Virus record (IMG/VR): IMGVR_UViG_3300001450_000022
Coordinates: 9,947-47,268 of that record
Source of the DNA: a virus
DNA: 37,322 nt
Direction: 5' to 3' (one strand)
Shown here: piece after piece, positions 14,672 through 36,678 of the stretch
Position numbering within the stretch: position 1 is the stretch's first letter
Layout of the letters: each line of letters starts with the position of its first letter
Position numbers and translations under genes: made by a program
Notes under the pieces: model-generated
Told to the model about the DNA's origin: nothing
The model's database searches: none
The model's input: only the letters and a program-made list of their open reading frames with translations

Positions 14672-17600
14672 ATGGCTAAAGCAAAAATAGGTGTAGAATT
14701 TGATCCAGTAAATACTAAAAAGGTAGATGCTGCGTTCGCTAGGCTCCAATCAAAGGCTAAAGGCGTAGATTTTGGTGGAGGTGTTAAGAGTTTAGATAAA
14801 TTATCTAGACCTTTGGGAAAAATAACTGGTCAAGCTAATGAGTTCCAAAAATCTTTAGAGGCTTCAAATGCCCGTGTTTTAGCTTTCGGCGCATCAGTCG
14901 TTGTAATAAATAAACTTTCAGAAGCTTTTCAAGCTTTAGTAAACAATACCGTTAAGGTAGAAGCTACGTTTGCTAAAATAGGTGTCATATTAGGAGGCAC
15001 AAGAAAAGAGCTTGAGCAATTTGGCCGAGGAATATTTGAGGTAGCAAAAAATACTGGGACAGCTTTTGATCAGGTTGCTGAAGGTGCTTTAGAATTAGCA
15101 CGTCAAGGTCTTGGCGTAAGTGAGTCGTTGGCTCGAGTAGAAACAGCTTTAAAATTAGTTCGTGTTGCTGGTATAGATTCTCAACAAGCGGTAGCTGGTT
15201 TAACTGCCGCGATTAAAGGTTTTGAAGGCGCTGGATTAACTGTAGCTCAAATTGGAGATAAATTAGCAGAAGTTGATACCAAGTTCGCTGTTTCAACCGA
15301 AGATTTAATTAATGGTCTTGAGCGTGCATCTGCTTCAGCTCGTGTAGCTGGAGTTTCTTTTGATGAACTTTTAGCTGCAGTCACCACAGTTCAAGAAAGA
15401 ACTCAACGTGGTGGTGCTGTCATTGGTAATGCATTTAAAACAATTTTTGCTAGAATTGGTAGGCAAGACACTTTACAAGCTTTAAGAGAATTAGGTATTG
15501 AAGTTTTAGACTCCTCTGGAAATGTAAGGGATGCTATACCTTTGTTTAGAGATTTAGCTGTTGAATTAGATAAGTTAGGTTTGCAGAGCGTAAAGGCTGG
15601 AGATATTATACAAAAAGTAGCTGGCGTAAGACAACGAGATATTTTAATTAACTTAGTTGAAGATTTAAATTCTAGTCAAAGTAAATTTGCGCAAGCTTTA
15701 ATTGTTTCAGGTAATGCCGTTGGATCTTTAGACAGTAAAAATGCAAAATTAAATCAAACACTTGAAGCATTAATTAACAATCTTTCAGTTAGTGGACAAC
15801 AACTAGCTTCTGTTTTAGGTGAAATTGGTTTTACTGATGCAGCTGGTGATATTTTAAAAACCTTTTCGGGGGTAGTTAATAAAATAAACGAAATTTTACA
15901 GGGTGAAGGCGTAGGTGCTAAATTTGCTCAAGGTATAGTTAAGGGTGTTGGGTCGGTGTTAACTGGTCCAGGTCTTGGATTAGTTGGAGCAATATTTTTA
16001 AAACTGTTTATTGATTTAGCAAAATTCGGGGGTACATCATTAAAATCTTTGCTTGGTGTAAACTCAGCCGCGCAAGCTCAGAGTTCTTTACAGGCATCCA
16101 TACTTCAAACACTTCTCCAAAACGAAAATGTTCAAAGAGAAATTTTAGCGCTTGAAGGAAATAAGGTAGCGCAAGAACAATTACTTTTAAAGATATACAA
16201 CCAACAAGCCGCTGCTATGGCTCGTGTTCAAAAGGCTGCAGCTGTGGTCACTCCAGGAATTTTTAAAAAGGGTTTCAGAGGTGGAGAAGCTGGTGTAGGG
16301 AAAGCTGCTGGTGGATATATTGCCGCTGAGGCAGGAGATGTTTCGCGTGGTGTTGGTGGCGCAAGTCCTGGCTCAAGTATAGTTTCTATTCCTAACTTTG
16401 CTTTTGGTGGTGGTAAAAAAGGAACAATGATAGCTAACAGTAGCGAATATCATGTTCCAAATTATGCTGGAGGCGGTGACGCAATATTTAATCAAAATAT
16501 GGTTCGGTCTATGGGACTTCCATCTGGCGCAAGAAAGATAACGGCCGCTGGTGGATATGTACCTAATTTTGTAAGACCGCAAATTTCTCTTGGTAAGTCT
16601 GGAATAACATCACCACAAGCTGCTAGACAAGCTGGCTATAGTGAATCTCAAATTTCTAGTCGTTTTGGTGCTCAAGGAATGAGAGCTAAAGAAAGATCTA
16701 AAAGAAAATTCGAAGATGTACCACTTGGACAATTTGCTATGATTATTCCTAGGCAAGGAGTCAATCAAGTTGTAAGAGGAGCGAAAGGCACATCAAATGA
16801 AGGTTTGAATTACACTGTCGCTGGATTCAAGGGAATGGCCGCGACAAGAAGGGGTGTATCTAATGATGAAAAATTAGATAACGGAGTTAAAAAATACGCA
16901 AGAGAAACAGCGCTTAGAGAAGCCAAATTAATTAGTGGAAACAGGCCAAAACCAGGTGCCATAAGAGAACTAGCTAATAAAGGAGCTTCTTCTGGTTTGG
17001 CAGGAGCTATATTTGAAACATCTGTTAGTTCTATATTAGGTTCAACTGATTTTGACGCAAACATAGATCCAAATAGAAGATTCGATTATACTGGGAAACA
17101 GGGATTAGAAGAATTATTTGACGTGCCGCTTAACGCGCAATTTGTAGAAGCTAAAATTAGAAACAGCACAGAGCAAAGAACAAGCATGTTTGGCAAAATG
17201 AAAAAACAACTGGGTAGAGCTGCTAGAGGATTCACACCGTTGGGTGATGCAATCAATAGGGAGCAAGCTGCAGGCGTTCCTATAAATCAAATTAGAATTA
17301 ATCAAAGTGGTAAATTAAAAAATTCAAAAAATCCAAGTGGACTTGCTGTGACAAACACAAGAGACGAACCAACAGGCAATATTCCTAACTTCGCAAAAGG
17401 AGGGCAAGAAGGCCTTAATCAAGGTTTAGATGGTTCTATAACTAAGCTGTTTGCTTTGCAATTAGCTGTAGGTGGATTAACCACTGTAATTGGTAAAACG
17501 GGAGAAGAGGCAAATAATTTCCAAAAAACTGTATCGCTTTTAGGTGAATCCACAATGACTGCAGTAAACGCTATGTTGGTTATGTCTACGATTGGAGTCA

Positions 17601-20122
17601 ATCCATTTGGAGCAAGTAAACAATTTGGTGGGCTAGGAAAAGGAGCAAGTGCGGTTATACCTGCTTTGGGAAGATTAAATAAATTTGCAAGTCCTTTGAT
17701 CAAGCTTTTTGGAGTTTTAGCTAGATTTGCTGGACCGATTGGTTTAGCTTTGGTCGCATTTACTTCATTAAATTCTGCGCTTAAAACTTTTACTGGTAAA
17801 GGTATTTTAGGTCAATTTGGGATTGGTGTAGAAAGCGCTTCGGATAGTTTAAAAAGATTAACTGAAGCATCTGACAAGTTAAATTTAGAACAATCAAAAA
17901 GAAGACAATCTGAAATTAGTAAGGAAATAGAAGAAGAGAGAATAAGACAGAGAGCGGGAATTCAGAGAAAATTAGATAAAGCACGAGATACCGCTTCTGG
18001 TTCGGGCTCTTCCTTTTTTAGAAATATAGCAAAAAGAGATATACCAATATTCGAAGATAGATTAGCTGGAGTAGAAGACAACGAAAAAATAATAAATCTT
18101 CAAAAAGAAAGCGAAATTTTAGATGAAAGAATTTTAGATCTACAAGAGAAAAAAACACAAGAATTACAAAAACAAGTAAAAGCTACAATTACTGCTTTCC
18201 AGGCCGATAGACAAATAGAGGCTAGATTAAGATCAGTAAGAAGTGGAATAGAAGATCGTTTTGATACTGGTGATATTAAATCAAGAATTTCAATAGGAGG
18301 AATTGGTTCGGACGCTAAAAGAGATTTAACATTCCAAGCGGAATCTCTTGAGTTGCAAGGTAAACAAGAGTTGGCGCAATTTGATATCGTTAAAAGTTAT
18401 ACAGAACAATTGAAGGTTGAGAAAAATTTAACCGATCTTCAAAAAGATAAAATAGATGGAATTTCTAAAGAAATAACAGCAGAAACCACTTTAGAGCAGA
18501 TCAGAGAAAAATTTAATGATTTAGGATTAACTGGCGTTTTAAATGAAGAAAAAATATTTCAAGCATTATTGGGTCAGAGAGCTGCTTTAATAGATAATGA
18601 AGTAATAGCCACCAGAAGATTAGAAAAAGAACAAAACCTAAAAAAAGCCATAGACGAACAAACACAAGGTTTAACTGGTTACGTTAATAAAAATAAAGAG
18701 GAATTAGATAGACTCCAAAAAGAATTCCCAGCCACAATGGCTCAAAATTTAGAAAGCAGTTTGAATAATGTTTTTGATAGTGTAGCGGATGGAGCATACA
18801 GTTCTGTTGGAGAAGCTTTGGGCGCAATAGCCGTTCAGTTTGGTAAAGATTTATTGGCTGAACAAAGAAAAATATATATAAAAAATATATCAACAAATTT
18901 AGCTAGTTCAGGTCCTGGAAAAGGTTTTCTTGATGCACTTAATCCATTTAAAAAAGCTTCTGGAGGTTTTATATCTGGAGGCGGCGGAGTTATAGATGAT
19001 GTTCCAGCAATGTTAACTGGCGGAGAATACGTTATTAAGAAATCAGCTGTTCAAAAATATGGAGTAGATTTTTTAAGCCGATTAAATGCTGGGGAAATGA
19101 GCGGATATAATAGCGGAGGATATGTGCAGGGAGGCGACAACGTAAGGAATACTAGATTTTTTGATGATGCAAGTGGTAACATGTTTGGTGGTGCACAATC
19201 CGATGCAAGATTAGCTAGAGCTAGATCTATGGATTTCTTTGCCCCTGGACAGAGAGGCGCTGGGTCTATAGTTGGAAAAGAAAATTTATTAGCATTTTCT
19301 GAGCAACAAATGACCTCTGGATCAACTGATAGAATCGGCAGTGGATCTATAAATTTAGAATTACAAAGTAGTAGATTAACAGCCTTTGGAAGAAGAAGGA
19401 TGTCTCCAGCAAGAGCGGCCCTTCAAGAAGCACAAGAACAGGCTAGGGGTTTAGCAATGCAATCTGCGGCGGAGGAAGAAAGAGTTTTTGCTGAAAACAG
19501 GGATGCTAAAAAAGCAAGATTAAAACAATTACAAGCGAATGTAGCGGGTGCATTTTTAGATGCTAGCGTAGCTGGCATAAGTTCGGCTATGGCACCTAAA
19601 CCTAAAACTAAAGGATTATCATCGGTTAATGCATTCGAAGCAGAATCAAATTTAAGGTTACAAGAAGGGTTCTCTGTGGATTTAGGTTTATCAACAAGTC
19701 CAGGAACTTTTTTGGATTTGGGTGCAGGGCAAAAAATTAATACGTCTTTATTTAATAGACAAGCTAATGGTGGTGTGAGTGTAGGAGGAGGTTCGATGTT
19801 AACTTCTGGAGAATTTGTTATGAGCGCTGCTTCTTCATCTCAATTAGGTAGAGGAACTTTAGATTCCATAAATCAAATGACATATGCAAATGGTGGAGCG
19901 GTTGGATCAGTAGGATCAAAATCGGGTTCTGGAAAAGCAGATGTTGAAAATGTAAATATAGTAATTAATATAGAGAAGGACGGAAGCGCAAATGCTTCAG
20001 CACAAGGTGGAGGAAATCAAGAACAAGCGAGAGAATTTTCTAGGAAAGTTAAGGATGTTGTATTGAACGTTATTAACGAAGAGAAGAGAGTTTCTGGAAC
20101 CTTGTTTACGAGAAATAAATAA
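14672..20122 (+). CDS. Tail tape measure protein with embedded nuclease-like domain
   Basis: This protein sets tail length and is ejected with the DNA. Residues 100-330 match the TP901-type tape measure core (for example QFGRGIFEVAKNTGTAFDQ). Hydrophobic segments lie near 432-452 and 1011-1033, and long helical coiled-coil regions follow 1060. The C-terminal part has tape-measure signatures GGEYVIKKSAVQKYG (about 1449) and SGEFVMSAASSSQLG (about 1712). IPNFA-type repeats sit at 573-577, 595-599, 630-634 and 904-908, usually next to Gly-rich turns. Between the third and fourth repeats lies a candidate PD-(D/E)XK nuclease signature: E782, D805 and E826-A-K828. At about 0.15 nm per residue, 1816 residues would span roughly 270 nm, less if inserts do not contribute. 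It is preceded by chaperone-like genes and followed by tail-tip genes. Confidence 0.93.
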   Translation: MAKAKIGVEFDPVNTKKVDAAFARLQSKAKGVDFGGGVKSLDKLSRPLGKITGQANEFQKSLEASNARVLAFGASVVVINKLSEAFQALVNNTVKVEATFAKIGVILGGTRKELEQFGRGIFEVAKNTGTAFDQVAEGALELARQGLGVSESLARVETALKLVRVAGIDSQQAVAGLTAAIKGFEGAGLTVAQIGDKLAEVDTKFAVSTEDLINGLERASASARVAGVSFDELLAAVTTVQERTQRGGAVIGNAFKTIFARIGRQDTLQALRELGIEVLDSSGNVRDAIPLFRDLAVELDKLGLQSVKAGDIIQKVAGVRQRDILINLVEDLNSSQSKFAQALIVSGNAVGSLDSKNAKLNQTLEALINNLSVSGQQLASVLGEIGFTDAAGDILKTFSGVVNKINEILQGEGVGAKFAQGIVKGVGSVLTGPGLGLVGAIFLKLFIDLAKFGGTSLKSLLGVNSAAQAQSSLQASILQTLLQNENVQREILALEGNKVAQEQLLLKIYNQQAAAMARVQKAAAVVTPGIFKKGFRGGEAGVGKAAGGYIAAEAGDVSRGVGGASPGSSIVSIPNFAFGGGKKGTMIANSSEYHVPNYAGGGDAIFNQNMVRSMGLPSGARKITAAGGYVPNFVRPQISLGKSGITSPQAARQAGYSESQISSRFGAQGMRAKERSKRKFEDVPLGQFAMIIPRQGVNQVVRGAKGTSNEGLNYTVAGFKGMAATRRGVSNDEKLDNGVKKYARETALREAKLISGNRPKPGAIRELANKGASSGLAGAIFETSVSSILGSTDFDANIDPNRRFDYTGKQGLEELFDVPLNAQFVEAKIRNSTEQRTSMFGKMKKQLGRAARGFTPLGDAINREQAAGVPINQIRINQSGKLKNSKNPSGLAVTNTRDEPTGNIPNFAKGGQEGLNQGLDGSITKLFALQLAVGGLTTVIGKTGEEANNFQKTVSLLGESTMTAVNAMLVMSTIGVNPFGASKQFGGLGKGASAVIPALGRLNKFASPLIKLFGVLARFAGPIGLALVAFTSLNSALKTFTGKGILGQFGIGVESASDSLKRLTEASDKLNLEQSKRRQSEISKEIEEERIRQRAGIQRKLDKARDTASGSGSSFFRNIAKRDIPIFEDRLAGVEDNEKIINLQKESEILDERILDLQEKKTQELQKQVKATITAFQADRQIEARLRSVRSGIEDRFDTGDIKSRISIGGIGSDAKRDLTFQAESLELQGKQELAQFDIVKSYTEQLKVEKNLTDLQKDKIDGISKEITAETTLEQIREKFNDLGLTGVLNEEKIFQALLGQRAALIDNEVIATRRLEKEQNLKKAIDEQTQGLTGYVNKNKEELDRLQKEFPATMAQNLESSLNNVFDSVADGAYSSVGEALGAIAVQFGKDLLAEQRKIYIKNISTNLASSGPGKGFLDALNPFKKASGGFISGGGGVIDDVPAMLTGGEYVIKKSAVQKYGVDFLSRLNAGEMSGYNSGGYVQGGDNVRNTRFFDDASGNMFGGAQSDARLARARSMDFFAPGQRGAGSIVGKENLLAFSEQQMTSGSTDRIGSGSINLELQSSRLTAFGRRRMSPARAALQEAQEQARGLAMQSAAEEERVFAENRDAKKARLKQLQANVAGAFLDASVAGISSAMAPKPKTKGLSSVNAFEAESNLRLQEGFSVDLGLSTSPGTFLDLGAGQKINTSLFNRQANGGVSVGGGSMLTSGEFVMSAASSSQLGRGTLDSINQMTYANGGAVGSVGSKSGSGKADVENVNIVINIEKDGSANASAQGGGNQEQAREFSRKVKDVVLNVINEEKRVSGTLFTRNK

Positions 20123-32474: not shown

Positions 32475-33485
32475 ATGGAGTTAGATTTTACAAAAGAGAT
32501 TGTTGCAGGTAGACCTGGACCAAAAAGTTCTGCACAGACACCAGCAAAACCAGAAGATAGAAAAAAAGGTTCATCTAAGAATGAGCCTGGTTCCGCTGGC
32601 ACTTCTCCAGACTCTAAGAAAAAAGCTGAAAAAATCCTAAAGAGACAGGATGACAAAACAAAAATAACAGCTGCAATAACTTTCAGCGCAAAAGTCACCA
32701 CTTCCCTCAAAAACAAGGTCAAAGAGCATAACGAAAAAAGTTCCAGAAAAGTGACTCTGGGTATGCTAAAAAAGGTTTACAGAAGGGGTGCTGGTGCATT
32801 TTCTGGTTCTAGTAGACCTGGTCAATCTCGAGCTTCTTGGGCTATGGCTAGGGTAAATACATTTTTAAGAATGATGAGGGGCGGTAAAGTAAAGGACGCA
32901 TACCGTAAAGCCGATTCAGATATTGCCAGAGCTTCAGAAAAAGATTTGCATGATTTACATATTCATCAAGAAACATGGTCTCCATCAGACTTTAGTGAAG
33001 CTAGAGATATATCTGACATAGAATTTTCACTAGCTAGAATCGATTTATTAGGTTGTGGATGCACACACGACGAAATACTAGAAGATGATGTTTCTTTCGA
33101 AGATCCCGTAATACCAATTATAAATGAAGCTACAGCTGAAGAAATAGAAGCAAAGGAAAAAAAAACTTTAAATAAACCTTTTAGATTAAGCGGCGATAAA
33201 AAAAAATTCGGAGTATACGTTAAAAACGAAAAAGGCAACGTTGTAATGGTAAAATTTGGGGATCCCAATATGAGTATCAAAAGAGATGACCCCGCTAGGC
33301 GTAAATCTTTTAGAGCTCGTCATCAGTGCGACACAAATCCTGGCCCTAAATACAAAGCTAGATACTGGTCTTGTAGACAATGGAGAGCTGGCAAAAAAGT
33401 TGAAGCTGAATTAGAATCTGACGCAAGTATTTTAGAGATCGACCCATCTTTATCAACGGTCGAAATAGTTGAAGATATGGATTGA
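32475..33485 (+). CDS. DUF5824/DUF6321-like phage protein
   Basis: This 336-residue protein has two recognisable but uncharacterised phage segments. At about 90-145, KVTLGMLKKVYRRGAGAFSG and SRASWAMARVNTFLRMMRGG resemble the DUF5824 pattern. At about 235-315, KFGVYVKNEKGNVVMVKFGD, RDDPARRKSFRARHQCDTNP and ARYWSCRQWR resemble DUF6321. The N-terminal 80 residues are Lys/Pro/Ser-rich and probably disordered, and the linker is acidic. Conserved Cys, Arg and His suggest nucleic-acid or metal binding, but no function is established to my knowledge. Family names are from memory and should be confirmed. Confidence 0.75.
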   Translation: MELDFTKEIVAGRPGPKSSAQTPAKPEDRKKGSSKNEPGSAGTSPDSKKKAEKILKRQDDKTKITAAITFSAKVTTSLKNKVKEHNEKSSRKVTLGMLKKVYRRGAGAFSGSSRPGQSRASWAMARVNTFLRMMRGGKVKDAYRKADSDIARASEKDLHDLHIHQETWSPSDFSEARDISDIEFSLARIDLLGCGCTHDEILEDDVSFEDPVIPIINEATAEEIEAKEKKTLNKPFRLSGDKKKFGVYVKNEKGNVVMVKFGDPNMSIKRDDPARRKSFRARHQCDTNPGPKYKARYWSCRQWRAGKKVEAELESDASILEIDPSLSTVEIVEDMD

Positions 33486-33495
33486 CTTTTTCAAA

Positions 33496-33514
33496 ATGCG
33501 ATTTAGTATCGCAT
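33496..33514 (+). repeat. Hairpin just before the WavE-like gene
   Basis: Perfect arms ATGCGAT (33496-33502) and ATCGCAT (33508-33514) flank TTAGT and end two bases before the ATG at 33517. There is no T-tract. A hairpin here could control translation of the first gene of the glycan cassette. If translation instead starts at 33496, the arm lies in coding sequence. Confidence 0.45.
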
Positions 33515-33516
33515 TA

Positions 33517-34284
33517 ATGAACTTAAGTAAAGAAAATATAACTGTAGTCTTACAAGGCCCAATAGACGATAGAACTTTTGAGGCTATAGATTCTTACAAC
33601 GATCAAGGCTTCGGTGAAGTAATTTGTTCCACGTGGAACGATGAAAATATAGATTTACTTGCACCATCAGACAATCAATCTTTTAAGTTAGTGACTTCCA
33701 AGTATCCAGACATGACTGGAATAAATAACGATGGTTGTAGATTTTTTGTCGCAATTACAGCTGGCGTAGGGTGTCATCATGCCAGCAAAGATTTTGTTTT
33801 AAAAGTTAGAACTGATGAATTTTATCCAGATCTTTCTAAATTTATTGAAAACTGGCAAAAATTTCCACACAGAGCTCATACAACAAACAATGGTTTTTGG
33901 AAGTTTGTTCCTTTCAACTTTTCAAATCATATGTATTTATGTAAAAAAGAAATATTATTTCAAGCTTGCTCTTCAATAATACATCATTCAAGTGGTAAAA
34001 TTTTAAAAAATTTAGATTTCACATCTTCAGAGCAAGCAACTGGTTACTTTTTGATGCTTGCCATGGGACACGACTTAGAGAAATCTGATTGGAGAAAAGT
34101 GTTTTCAGAAAATGTTTTTATTACACCTTGTTCTGATTTACCAGGTCATTTGCATTCGGGACAAACTTTTACTAACTTTAAATTTAAAAGAGTTCCAGAC
34201 TATCCTAACAACAGAAAAGATAGCTCTGTTTTAAAACATTGTACAGAAAGTATTTTTAATCATCACAAAGAATTTTTATTATGA
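33517..34284 (+). CDS. WavE-like glycan biosynthesis protein
   Basis: I chose ATG 33517 (MNLSKENITVVLQGPI, 255 residues), which places the family-typical ITVVLQGPI close to the N-terminus; ATG 33496 would add seven residues. The VVLQGPI strand followed by EVICSTWND (about 35-43) and a later VLKVRTDEFYPD (about 98-109) fit the WavE lipopolysaccharide-synthesis family, a GT-A-type transferase-like group in which the TDE acids could bind the nucleotide sugar. Its stop overlaps the neuB-like start by four bases. A role in making or attaching a surface glycan is inferred from the family and the cassette. Confidence 0.68.
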   Translation: MNLSKENITVVLQGPIDDRTFEAIDSYNDQGFGEVICSTWNDENIDLLAPSDNQSFKLVTSKYPDMTGINNDGCRFFVAITAGVGCHHASKDFVLKVRTDEFYPDLSKFIENWQKFPHRAHTTNNGFWKFVPFNFSNHMYLCKKEILFQACSSIIHHSSGKILKNLDFTSSEQATGYFLMLAMGHDLEKSDWRKVFSENVFITPCSDLPGHLHSGQTFTNFKFKRVPDYPNNRKDSSVLKHCTESIFNHHKEFLL

Positions 34285-35114
34285 AAAAAACCTACATTAT
34301 TGCAGAAATAGGAATCAACCACAACGGAAGTTTGGATGTTGCTAAAAAATTAATCGATATTTCAGCCGCAGCTGGTTGCGACGCCGTCAAGTTTCAAAAG
34401 AGAAACCCAGATGTCTGTGTTCCAGAACACCAAAAATCTGTTATGCGAGACACGCCTTGGGGCAAAATGACGTATTTAGATTATAAATACAAAGTAGAAT
34501 TTGGAAAAGAAGAGTATGACGAAATAGACAAATACTGTAAACAACAAAATATTTCTTGGAGCGCATCTCCTTGGGATCTAGATAGTTTAGAATTTTTAAA
34601 CCAATACGATATTCCATTCATCAAGCTTCCTTCTGCAATGATTACAAATATAGAACTACTCAAAGCATCTTGCAAGACAGGCAAAAAAGTTATAATTTCA
34701 ACAGGAATGAGTAGTATAGATGAAGTTAATGATGCTCAAAGAATTTTATCTAGAGAGGCGAAAGATTTTGCAATCTTACATTGTAATTCTACCTATCCAG
34801 CTCCGATTGAAGAACTTAATTTATCTTGCATTAAAACATTAAAAGATAAATACAAATGCGAAGTTGGATATAGCGGTCATGAATTTAGATTAGGCACATC
34901 AGTTGCTGCAGTTTATCTTGGCGCATCTATAATCGAAAGACATGTCACCTTAGATAGAACAATGTGGGGCTCCGATCATATGTCTTCTGTTGAACCGCAA
35001 GGTTTATTTAAATTAGTTAGCGGTATTAGAGAACTAGAAAAATCTTACGGCAATGGAAAAATAGAAGTCACAGAATCCGAAAAACCTGTTAGAAAAAAAT
35101 TAAGAGGCAACTAA
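34281..35114 (+). CDS. NeuB-family nonulosonate synthase without SAF domain
   Basis: Condenses phosphoenolpyruvate with a hexose-derived sugar to give a sialic, legionaminic or related acid. The TIM-barrel motifs are intact: IAEIGINHNG (7-16), DAVKFQKRNPD, SASPWDLDSLEFL, IKLPSAMITN, IISTGMSSIDE, ILHCNSTYPAP, VGYSGHE and IERHVTLDR. The protein is 277 residues and ends KPVRKKLRGN, where bacterial NeuB/SpsE (about 340 residues) continue into the antifreeze-like SAF domain. That domain helps close the active site in the dimer, so its absence is notable. The substrate cannot be told from sequence. It is coupled to both neighbours by overlapping starts and stops. Confidence 0.88.
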   Translation: MKKTYIIAEIGINHNGSLDVAKKLIDISAAAGCDAVKFQKRNPDVCVPEHQKSVMRDTPWGKMTYLDYKYKVEFGKEEYDEIDKYCKQQNISWSASPWDLDSLEFLNQYDIPFIKLPSAMITNIELLKASCKTGKKVIISTGMSSIDEVNDAQRILSREAKDFAILHCNSTYPAPIEELNLSCIKTLKDKYKCEVGYSGHEFRLGTSVAAVYLGASIIERHVTLDRTMWGSDHMSSVEPQGLFKLVSGIRELEKSYGNGKIEVTESEKPVRKKLRGN

Positions 35115-35905
35115 TGGACTTGTACAGAAAAGATATATTTTCTGGTGGATGGTTTTCTTTTCACTCACCTAAAGACAATTGGGTTTATAATATTTCTCAA
35201 AAAATATACAATCAATATTTTAATACAGAGCTGTTAGACAAAGAGTTTGGAGAATCAGAAATAACAGAAGATTTATTTTTAAAAAGCGATTTAAACTTTG
35301 ACTTTGTAAAAGGTAAAAGCGTTTTGGTTGTTGGAGGAGGGCCATCATCGTCCAAACTAAATAAAGATTTAATTGACTCCTACGACCTTATTTTTAGTTG
35401 CAACAGTTTTTATAAAAACGAAACATTAAAAAAACACAAAGTAGATTTAGCTCTAATATCGGACGAGGTTAATTTAAAAGATAAAGACTTCATAGACTAC
35501 ATTACCGAACATAATACAATAATAGGTTTCGAGCATGGCAATAGACATGATAGTGATGAAATCATAAAACTAAAAGAAGATTTTTATCCATTTGTTTATC
35601 TCACTAGATACTTCTCCAGATTAGGTTTTGCTATAAGAGCTTGTGTGTTGGCTAGGTTATTAGGCGCAGAAAAAATACATTTTATTGGAGTTGACGGTTT
35701 TAAAAACAAAAATACACCACACCTTTTTGAGTCAAACAAAAAACCACCATACTTCAATGATACTGAAAAATTTCAAGAGTCAATGATTGTTTTTTACGAA
35801 TACATGTTGAGGGATTTAAAAACAAAAGAATTAAAAAATTTATCAGAAGATGAAGACGACAGCATATATTCTGGTATATTAGAAAAGGTTAAAAACTCTT
35901 TATGA
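35114..35905 (+). CDS. GT42/DUF115-like putative sialyltransferase-type protein
   Basis: This 263-residue protein has a Rossmann-like strand GKSVLVVGGGPSSSKL (about 66-81), then YDLIFSCNSFYKN and VDLALISD. Later it has RLGFAIRACVLARLLGAEKIHFIGVDGF (in order), which resembles bacterial sialyltransferase GT42 and DUF115/Maf-type flagellin-glycan proteins. Placed directly after a NeuB-type gene with a one-base overlap, transfer of the nonulosonic acid is a sensible hypothesis. No CMP-sugar synthetase (NeuA) is visible in the window, so the donor would have to come from the host or from genes beyond the edge. Confidence 0.62.
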   Translation: MDLYRKDIFSGGWFSFHSPKDNWVYNISQKIYNQYFNTELLDKEFGESEITEDLFLKSDLNFDFVKGKSVLVVGGGPSSSKLNKDLIDSYDLIFSCNSFYKNETLKKHKVDLALISDEVNLKDKDFIDYITEHNTIIGFEHGNRHDSDEIIKLKEDFYPFVYLTRYFSRLGFAIRACVLARLLGAEKIHFIGVDGFKNKNTPHLFESNKKPPYFNDTEKFQESMIVFYEYMLRDLKTKELKNLSEDEDDSIYSGILEKVKNSL

Positions 35906-36678
35906 AGGTAGCGTTGTGTTATTCTGGACAAATTGGCGGTCTTAAAAAAGCCATACATAATCAAAGAAAATGCTTTCTAAAAGATTCTTTTGATGTATAT
36001 GCTTACACATCTAACTTAGTTAGCCATAAAGGTTTGCCCCAACCGCACATTAATCCAAATTCAGAAGTTCATGAATATTTAAAAGGGGGAGTGGGGTGGA
36101 GAAAGCATTTGCCGTCTTACGGTATTGTATATAAAATAAAAAGTACAATTGTCCAAGACTTTTTAAATTTACTTAATCCAGTAAAACAATTTATTGAAAA
36201 CGAATCACTTGAAGACACTTTAAACGATTCGAATATGACAAAATGGGAGTGGTTGCGAAAAAGACAACTTAAAAAAATGTATGAGTGCAACAAAATGATT
36301 ACAGGAAATTACGACATTGTCGTAAGGTCTAGGTTTGAGTTCAGCCCATATATAAATATCGACATAGAAGAAATATACAAAAAACACGGAAACGATAATA
36401 GAATTTTTGTTTTTGGTGGTTGGTCCTGTGTTCCACCAATGGTTTTTATGAACCCATTTTTTTGTGATGGTTTTGTCTTTGGCTCACCTAAAGTTATGGA
36501 TATTTTTACATCTTTGTATTTAAATAAAGAGGCGTATCCATTCGACCCCAAATATAAGGAATGTTGGGATAAATACGGTGACAACGTTGAATATCAATTA
36601 AAAAAACACTTAGAAAAGCACGATATAGAATTAATATACATAGGAGGTCAAAGATCAATGTATCACCTAGAAAGATGA
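35902..36678 (+). CDS. Glycosyltransferase-like protein
   Basis: This 258-residue protein begins MKVALCYSGQIGGLKKAIHN, a pattern shared with uncharacterised glycosyltransferase-like proteins in bacterial surface-polysaccharide loci and large phages. YDIVVRSRFEF (about 138-148) resembles the DxxxRxR-type segment of that group, followed by GWSCVPPMVFMNPFFCDGFVFG. There is no membrane segment. It is coupled by four-base overlaps to both neighbours in the glycan cassette. The donor and acceptor are unknown. Confidence 0.6.
   Translation: MKVALCYSGQIGGLKKAIHNQRKCFLKDSFDVYAYTSNLVSHKGLPQPHINPNSEVHEYLKGGVGWRKHLPSYGIVYKIKSTIVQDFLNLLNPVKQFIENESLEDTLNDSNMTKWEWLRKRQLKKMYECNKMITGNYDIVVRSRFEFSPYINIDIEEIYKKHGNDNRIFVFGGWSCVPPMVFMNPFFCDGFVFGSPKVMDIFTSLYLNKEAYPFDPKYKECWDKYGDNVEYQLKKHLEKHDIELIYIGGQRSMYHLER

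Follow-up and report, generated by a model that had tools for sequence, protein, structure and literature searches.

The tape measure protein (TMP) of a phage fills the tail tube, exits before the DNA, and probably inserts into the inner membrane. For example, the TMP of lambda is ejected before the DNA and associates with the inner membrane, and SNIPE, a host-encoded defence that binds the TMP, places a nuclease at the site of phage DNA entry (PMC13190303). Enzymes joined to tape-measure-like proteins have been reported in bacterial contractile injection systems (CIS). Tme of Streptomyces davawensis is a CIS effector with a C-terminal endonuclease domain of the EndA type, bearing DRGH and H-N-N motifs (PMC11126660), and the reconfigurable effectors of the Sle1 type carry exchangeable C-terminal domains in bacterial particles, with no mention of a nuclease (PMC13277306). 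Delivery within the virion is also a property of the polyvalent proteins of phages and conjugative elements, which combine several enzymatic domains in one protein and were surveyed from MuF, DarA/B, and N4 RNAP seeds, tape measure proteins being unmentioned (PMC5512222). The PD-(D/E)XK nucleases, on the other hand, are recognized by motifs I-IV, with E9, D33, E46, and K48 as the residues of Hjc, and new families of this superfamily are known to evade profile searches (PMC1913061). In the open literature, most subscription journals lying outside our search, we found no paper on a nuclease domain within a phage tape measure protein.

Here we describe a candidate for such a domain in a window of 37,322 nucleotides from an uncultured marine phage (positions 9,947 to 47,268 of IMG/VR record IMGVR_UViG_3300001450_000022, the whole stretch analysed). 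The TMP open reading frame is large and lies among tail genes; it matches PF10145 with an E-value of 6e-26 (91.9 bits against a curated cut-off of 33.2) and PHROG tape measure families at E 2e-43. We assign residues ~688-853 of this protein, with a probability of about 0.6, to a divergent metal-dependent nuclease-like domain of the PD-(D/E)XK type, which would be delivered by the TMP as an exchangeable early effector. The features are given below, with residue counts from a 59-sequence alignment (A6), elements predicted by AlphaFold2, and PNF repeats read from the sequence.

14672..20122, plus strand: TMP gene, 1816 aa; PF10145 (PhageMin_Tail) at aa 124-305, PHROG tape measure families
15956..16012, plus strand: hydrophobic segment aa 429-447 (Kyte-Doolittle 1.89), candidate membrane segment before the domain
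16388..16402, plus strand: PNF repeat 1, IPNFA, aa 573-577
16454..16468, plus strand: PNF repeat 2, VPNYA, aa 595-599
16559..16570, plus strand: PNF repeat 3, VPNF, aa 630-633, upstream edge of the slot; identity between TMPs drops just after it
16700..17272, plus strand: modelled nuclease-like segment, aa 677-867 (core about aa 688-853), from alignment A6 and AlphaFold2
17003..17017, plus strand: putative motif I, G778-A-I-F781-E782, in predicted helix aa 770-788 (G 59/59; F/Y/L; E 57/59, D 2/59)
17084..17086, plus strand: putative motif II, D805 (F804-D805-Y806), in a short predicted strand (D 59/59, the top conserved column)
17147..17155, plus strand: putative motif III, E826-A-K828, in predicted strand aa 824-827 (30 E, 29 D; K 59/59)
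17195..17197, plus strand: candidate motif IV, K842, in predicted helix aa 833-853 (49 K, 10 Q)
17237..17377, plus strand: conserved module PLxxAIxRExxAGVPxNQIRINQ..NPxGLAVTNTRDEPTG, aa 856-902, anchor in 114 viral stretches
17381..17395, plus strand: PNF repeat 4, IPNFA, aa 904-908, downstream edge of the slot
17705..17761, plus strand: hydrophobic segment aa 1012-1030 (Kyte-Doolittle 1.92), candidate membrane segment after the domain

The translation confirms that E782 (codon 17015-17017), D805, and E826-A-K828 lie inside the TMP, between PNF repeats, at the positions named in the original prediction. That prediction had set the domain between two IPNFA repeats, which is correct for the downstream border, the nearest upstream repeat being YVPNF instead. 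The spaced motif GxxFE-FD[YF]-ExK has a single occurrence in the window versus none in 100 shuffles. Short [IV]PN[FY][A] repeats, of which at least two are present in 48 of 51 independently selected TMPs, mark the domain borders and are possible processing, binding, or recombination sites.

The first close relative came from a viral contig, with 69% identity in the best segment, and motif and profile scans of viral contigs yielded some 15 TMPs, mostly of ~2100 residues, in which the domain likewise lies between PNF repeats and the third acidic residue is already either D or E. Alignment A6 comprises 59 divergent TMP domains with a mean column identity of 22%. The only invariant columns are G778, D805, and K828, and ranking of 150 columns by information content gave the order D805, E782, F781, E826, G778, and K828, so that the four residues originally singled out take ranks 1, 2, 4, and 6 and clearly withstand the original test of conservation among homologues. 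The near-equal division of position 826 corresponds literally to the D/E alternation of PD-(D/E)XK motif III, and the K/Q position 842 falls within the helix that follows. The residue preceding D805 is F, L, I, or W in homologues, the proline of "PD" being absent, and the 22 most conserved columns contain no histidine. As read from these sequences, the domain carries putative motifs I-IV of PD-(D/E)XK nucleases, including the D/E alternation.

Because the nuclease motif itself served to trim and select the A6 sequences, a TMP set independent of it matters as a test. A second set was therefore picked by an N-terminal TMP motif only and comprises 51 new TMPs that continue for 700 residues or more downstream. 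The A6 profile matches 41 of them at 10 bits or more, whereas reversed sequences gave no match at this level (best, 6.4 bits), and the best identity of the 41 domains to any A6 row lies between 29 and 72%. Of the 41, 39 retain all four residues, in agreement with the conservation found in A6; one exception is truncated by the contig end, and the other aligns E at the D position. The candidate motif IV position is K in 33 and Q in 7. A motif-free scan anchored on the downstream module (NTRDEPxGxxI), with the nuclease motif unused, returned 114 viral stretches, all within large TMP open reading frames, from which 81 unique upstream segments were left once short and duplicate cases were dropped. 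A loose core motif (GxxFE, then D between hydrophobic residues, then [D/E]xK) is present in 76 of these 81. Shuffled segments average 0.1 matches in 81, none of 329 other segments from the same TMPs has the motif, and the five upstream segments without it carry variants of the motif, as judged by eye.

The AlphaFold2 model of aa 677-867, built from the 59 sequences, has a pLDDT of 84.9 and a pTM of 0.78. Its strands span residues 688-695, 698-702, 713-719, two residues at D805, and 824-827, which includes E826, and its helices span 732-755, 761-767, 770-788, which carries E782, and 833-853. The predicted order of a helix with the E, a short strand with the D, a strand with ExK, and a helix agrees with the PD-(D/E)XK nuclease core, although the model has no strand between helix A (E782) and the D805 strand, where the canonical core would have one. 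The modelled segment ends before the predicted strand QIRINQ and would not extend to the C-terminal strand of a canonical core; the QIRINQ strand appears, at low confidence, in a model from 10 sequences (pLDDT 37.8). Foldseek of the domain model against PDB and BFVD gave no match (best E above 1), and VIA-align found no PD-(D/E)XK chain, its best hit (Z 3.6) being to unrelated chains through short helical matches. Profile searches with the domain against Pfam, PHROGs, and PDB, and with four subfamilies and the closest group against PDB, returned nothing, and hhalign scores against Mrr_cat and HSDR_N_2 were background, no better than response regulators or reversed profiles. The missing Foldseek or VIA-align match to a predicted model does not exclude a restriction-endonuclease fold, but because there is no Foldseek match in PDB and the profile scores are background, the PD-(D/E)XK fold stays a candidate. 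The proposed PD-(D/E)XK nature of the domain thus holds for residue conservation, motif order, and the order of elements in the model, and the helix-strand-strand-helix arrangement of the expected restriction-endonuclease core is predicted, whereas neither a fold nor a profile match accompanies them and the strand after helix A is absent. No result singles out the Holliday-junction resolvases, which the original prediction had given as an example of the superfamily.

Comparison of 68 TMPs gave median pairwise identities of 46% over the 350 residues before the slot, 25% in the domain, and 76% in the downstream module. Among 571 TMP pairs whose N-terminal regions share more than 60% identity, 367 have domains below 28%. 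Unrelated versions (14-28% identity) occur in TMPs that share as much as 93% identity ahead of the domain, the extreme pair showing 93% there versus 14% within it. In five TMP pairs, an identity of 70-98% gives way to one of about 20-30% immediately past the third PNF repeat and recovers to 66-88% at the downstream module, so that the slot edges are sharp. The stretch from the module to the C-terminal part of the TMPs is also variable; therefore, the nuclease slot is not the sole variable region. Within subfamilies, the median dN/dS is 0.24 (119 within-type pairs), indicating purifying selection and therefore that the domain versions are maintained. From these alignments, the domain appears to occupy a swappable slot bounded by PNF repeats, with the apparent nuclease signature retained and the remainder of the domain swapped across dozens of related phages.

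With respect to mechanism, E782, D805, E826, and K828 would constitute the active site, and the slot domain would reach the cell with the TMP and then fold. Flanked as it is by hydrophobic segments at aa 429-447 and aa 1012-1030, it could come to lie on the cytoplasmic side after membrane insertion. There it would cut DNA early in infection, the likeliest substrate being DNA of the host, a resident element, or a competing phage; the original suggestion was that it could act on genome ends or host DNA. We propose that phages differ in domain version because the targets or their inhibitors diversify. That close relatives have swapped unrelated versions speaks for an antagonistic target, such as rival phages, resident elements, or host defence, rather than for an unvarying role on the DNA of the phage itself. 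A nuclease arriving just ahead of the phage's own DNA would need a mechanism of self-protection; none was identified, and a partial Pfam scan of about 50 open reading frames of the 84.8-kb record found no DNA methyltransferase among them.

The active-site motifs would apply equally to a nuclease for the phage's own DNA, trimming or nicking the genome end beside the TMP or processing DNA at entry or packaging. Such a routine task would suit a domain that is near-universal in these TMPs (41/51), and the contact between the TMP and the genome end awaiting ejection also counts in its favor. However, routine tasks seldom need unrelated versions in TMPs that are so nearly identical elsewhere, and in some TMPs of the same clade the slot lacks a nuclease or is occupied by other domains, leaving this explanation a minor possibility. 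Another reading is that of an enzyme in which acids and a lysine cluster similarly on a different fold, acting on a different substrate such as RNA or a nucleotide. The confident model without a PDB match and the background profile scores permit a different fold, and neighboring slots in other TMPs resemble other effector enzymes, but the order E, D, (D/E)xK, and K/Q together with the D/E alternation suits PD-(D/E)XK best of the families considered, and we regard this reading as unlikely. It is very improbable that the domain is a non-catalytic structural, metal-binding, or partner-binding part of the tail, even though its host protein is structural and family matches are to tail proteins only, given that the conserved set is minimal and mostly polar while the rest drifts to 22% identity, a pattern usual for catalytic sites rather than for binding scaffolds.

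The preferred reading of a TMP-borne nuclease-like effector may be one instance of a broader diversity across these phages. TMPs without the nuclease-like domain appear to carry other enzyme-like domains, and several TMPs of the independent set have other or extra segments between PNF repeats. For example, one TMP (L266) has a metallopeptidase-like segment recognized by eye, with HExGH twice and a Reprolysin_4 match at E 0.0013, another (L277) has ADP-ribosyltransferase-like (TLYRGM..TTTSF..EREVSLF) and kinase-like segments, also by eye, and L318 and L328 have P-loop and HAD-like segments by eye. Further nuclease-like segments were seen by eye between PNF repeats in L316, L318, and L325, and L281 has a tandem duplicate. 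Because the candidate strings in L277, L316, L318, and L328 were read by eye and Pfam support is weak or absent, these other slot domains are leads. It is about an even chance that the TMP is a polymorphic effector carrier in a large, mostly marine clade of uncultured phages, with PNF-delimited slots that exchange enzyme domains among otherwise close relatives, so that a changing set of enzymes is injected with the tail protein ahead of all phage gene expression; the commonest content would then be the nuclease-like domain, with candidate metallopeptidase, ADP-ribosyltransferase-like, kinase-like, P-loop, and HAD-like domains elsewhere.

The module AIxRExxAGxPxxQIRINQ..NPxGLAVTNTRDEPTG is ~76% identical between TMPs with unrelated neighboring domains. 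We considered whether it completes the fold and rejected this, the domain being present without the exact NTRDEP string in 25 of the 41 independent TMPs; a looser version of the module is found in 25 of 51. A distant TMP of at least 2731 aa (L006:1-8196) shows the E-D-ExK pattern as GNLFE, FDF, and TEAK, between PALLTPGEFV-type instead of PNF repeats, and matches the A6 profile at 22.9 bits, having been selected by motif. A small separate protein, encoded by a 220-aa open reading frame on the minus strand of a viral contig (L012), has a classic-looking PD-(D/E)XK motif, GDIFE..PEPDFKGWEIKT.

Among the cultured phages searched, none was found with the domain. A tblastn match to a Gordonia phage was due to chance, lying on the opposite strand of its TMP gene, as were matches to Synechococcus phages, which are confined to the C-terminal portion of the query with its PNF repeats. 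The domain occurs in 1 of 395 bacterial genomes drawn from one phylum, solely inside large TMP-like frames, and an origin from a host toxin was not traced among them. As for other genes of the phage, an ordinary PDDEXK_1 nuclease and an ERCC4-domain protein lie apart from the TMP (L257:15127-16119 and L256:9320-10240), and a match to ATE_C, the C-terminal domain of arginine-tRNA-protein transferase, occurs in the phage record (L258:4888-5649, E 4.5e-6). A surface-sugar cluster (window 33469-36675 and L257:2728-8342) encodes NeuB, CST-I/MptE-like and WavE-like proteins, a polysaccharide synthase, an aminotransferase, and a cytidylyltransferase, which suggests that the phage has a pathway for a nonulosonic (sialic-type) acid.

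If the preferred reading is true, TMPs would be not only rulers and entry channels but also vehicles for swappable enzymes active at the onset of infection, linking phage tails to bacterial CIS with tape-measure-derived effectors. It would also provide a large new nuclease family as a resource and make both the role of the TMP inside the cell and phage competition at entry testable. A signature kept across phages while the rest of the domain is swapped would suit a tool or weapon that is injected.

Compared with the PD-(D/E)XK superfamily, the domain shares the order and nature of motifs I-IV, the alternation in motif III, and the K/Q in the following helix. The E-D spacing is 23 versus 24 in Hjc and the D-E spacing 21 versus 13, and the domain differs in lacking the proline before D and the strand from helix A to the D strand, in its predicted N-terminal β-strands, and in having no detectable fold or profile match. 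SNIPE is similar in linking a nuclease to the TMP at the point of DNA entry but is not itself a TMP domain. With polyvalent proteins, the window's TMP would share virion delivery of enzymatic activity directed at nucleic acids, one such domain being found in it. Tme offers an endonuclease domain on a tape-measure-like protein delivered by a phage-tail-like particle, whereas here the protein is a phage TMP and the domain is internal, with no conserved histidine and without the EndA-type motifs. Effectors of the Sle1 type, although bacterial, resemble this TMP in combining a tape-measure-related platform with exchangeable functional domains.
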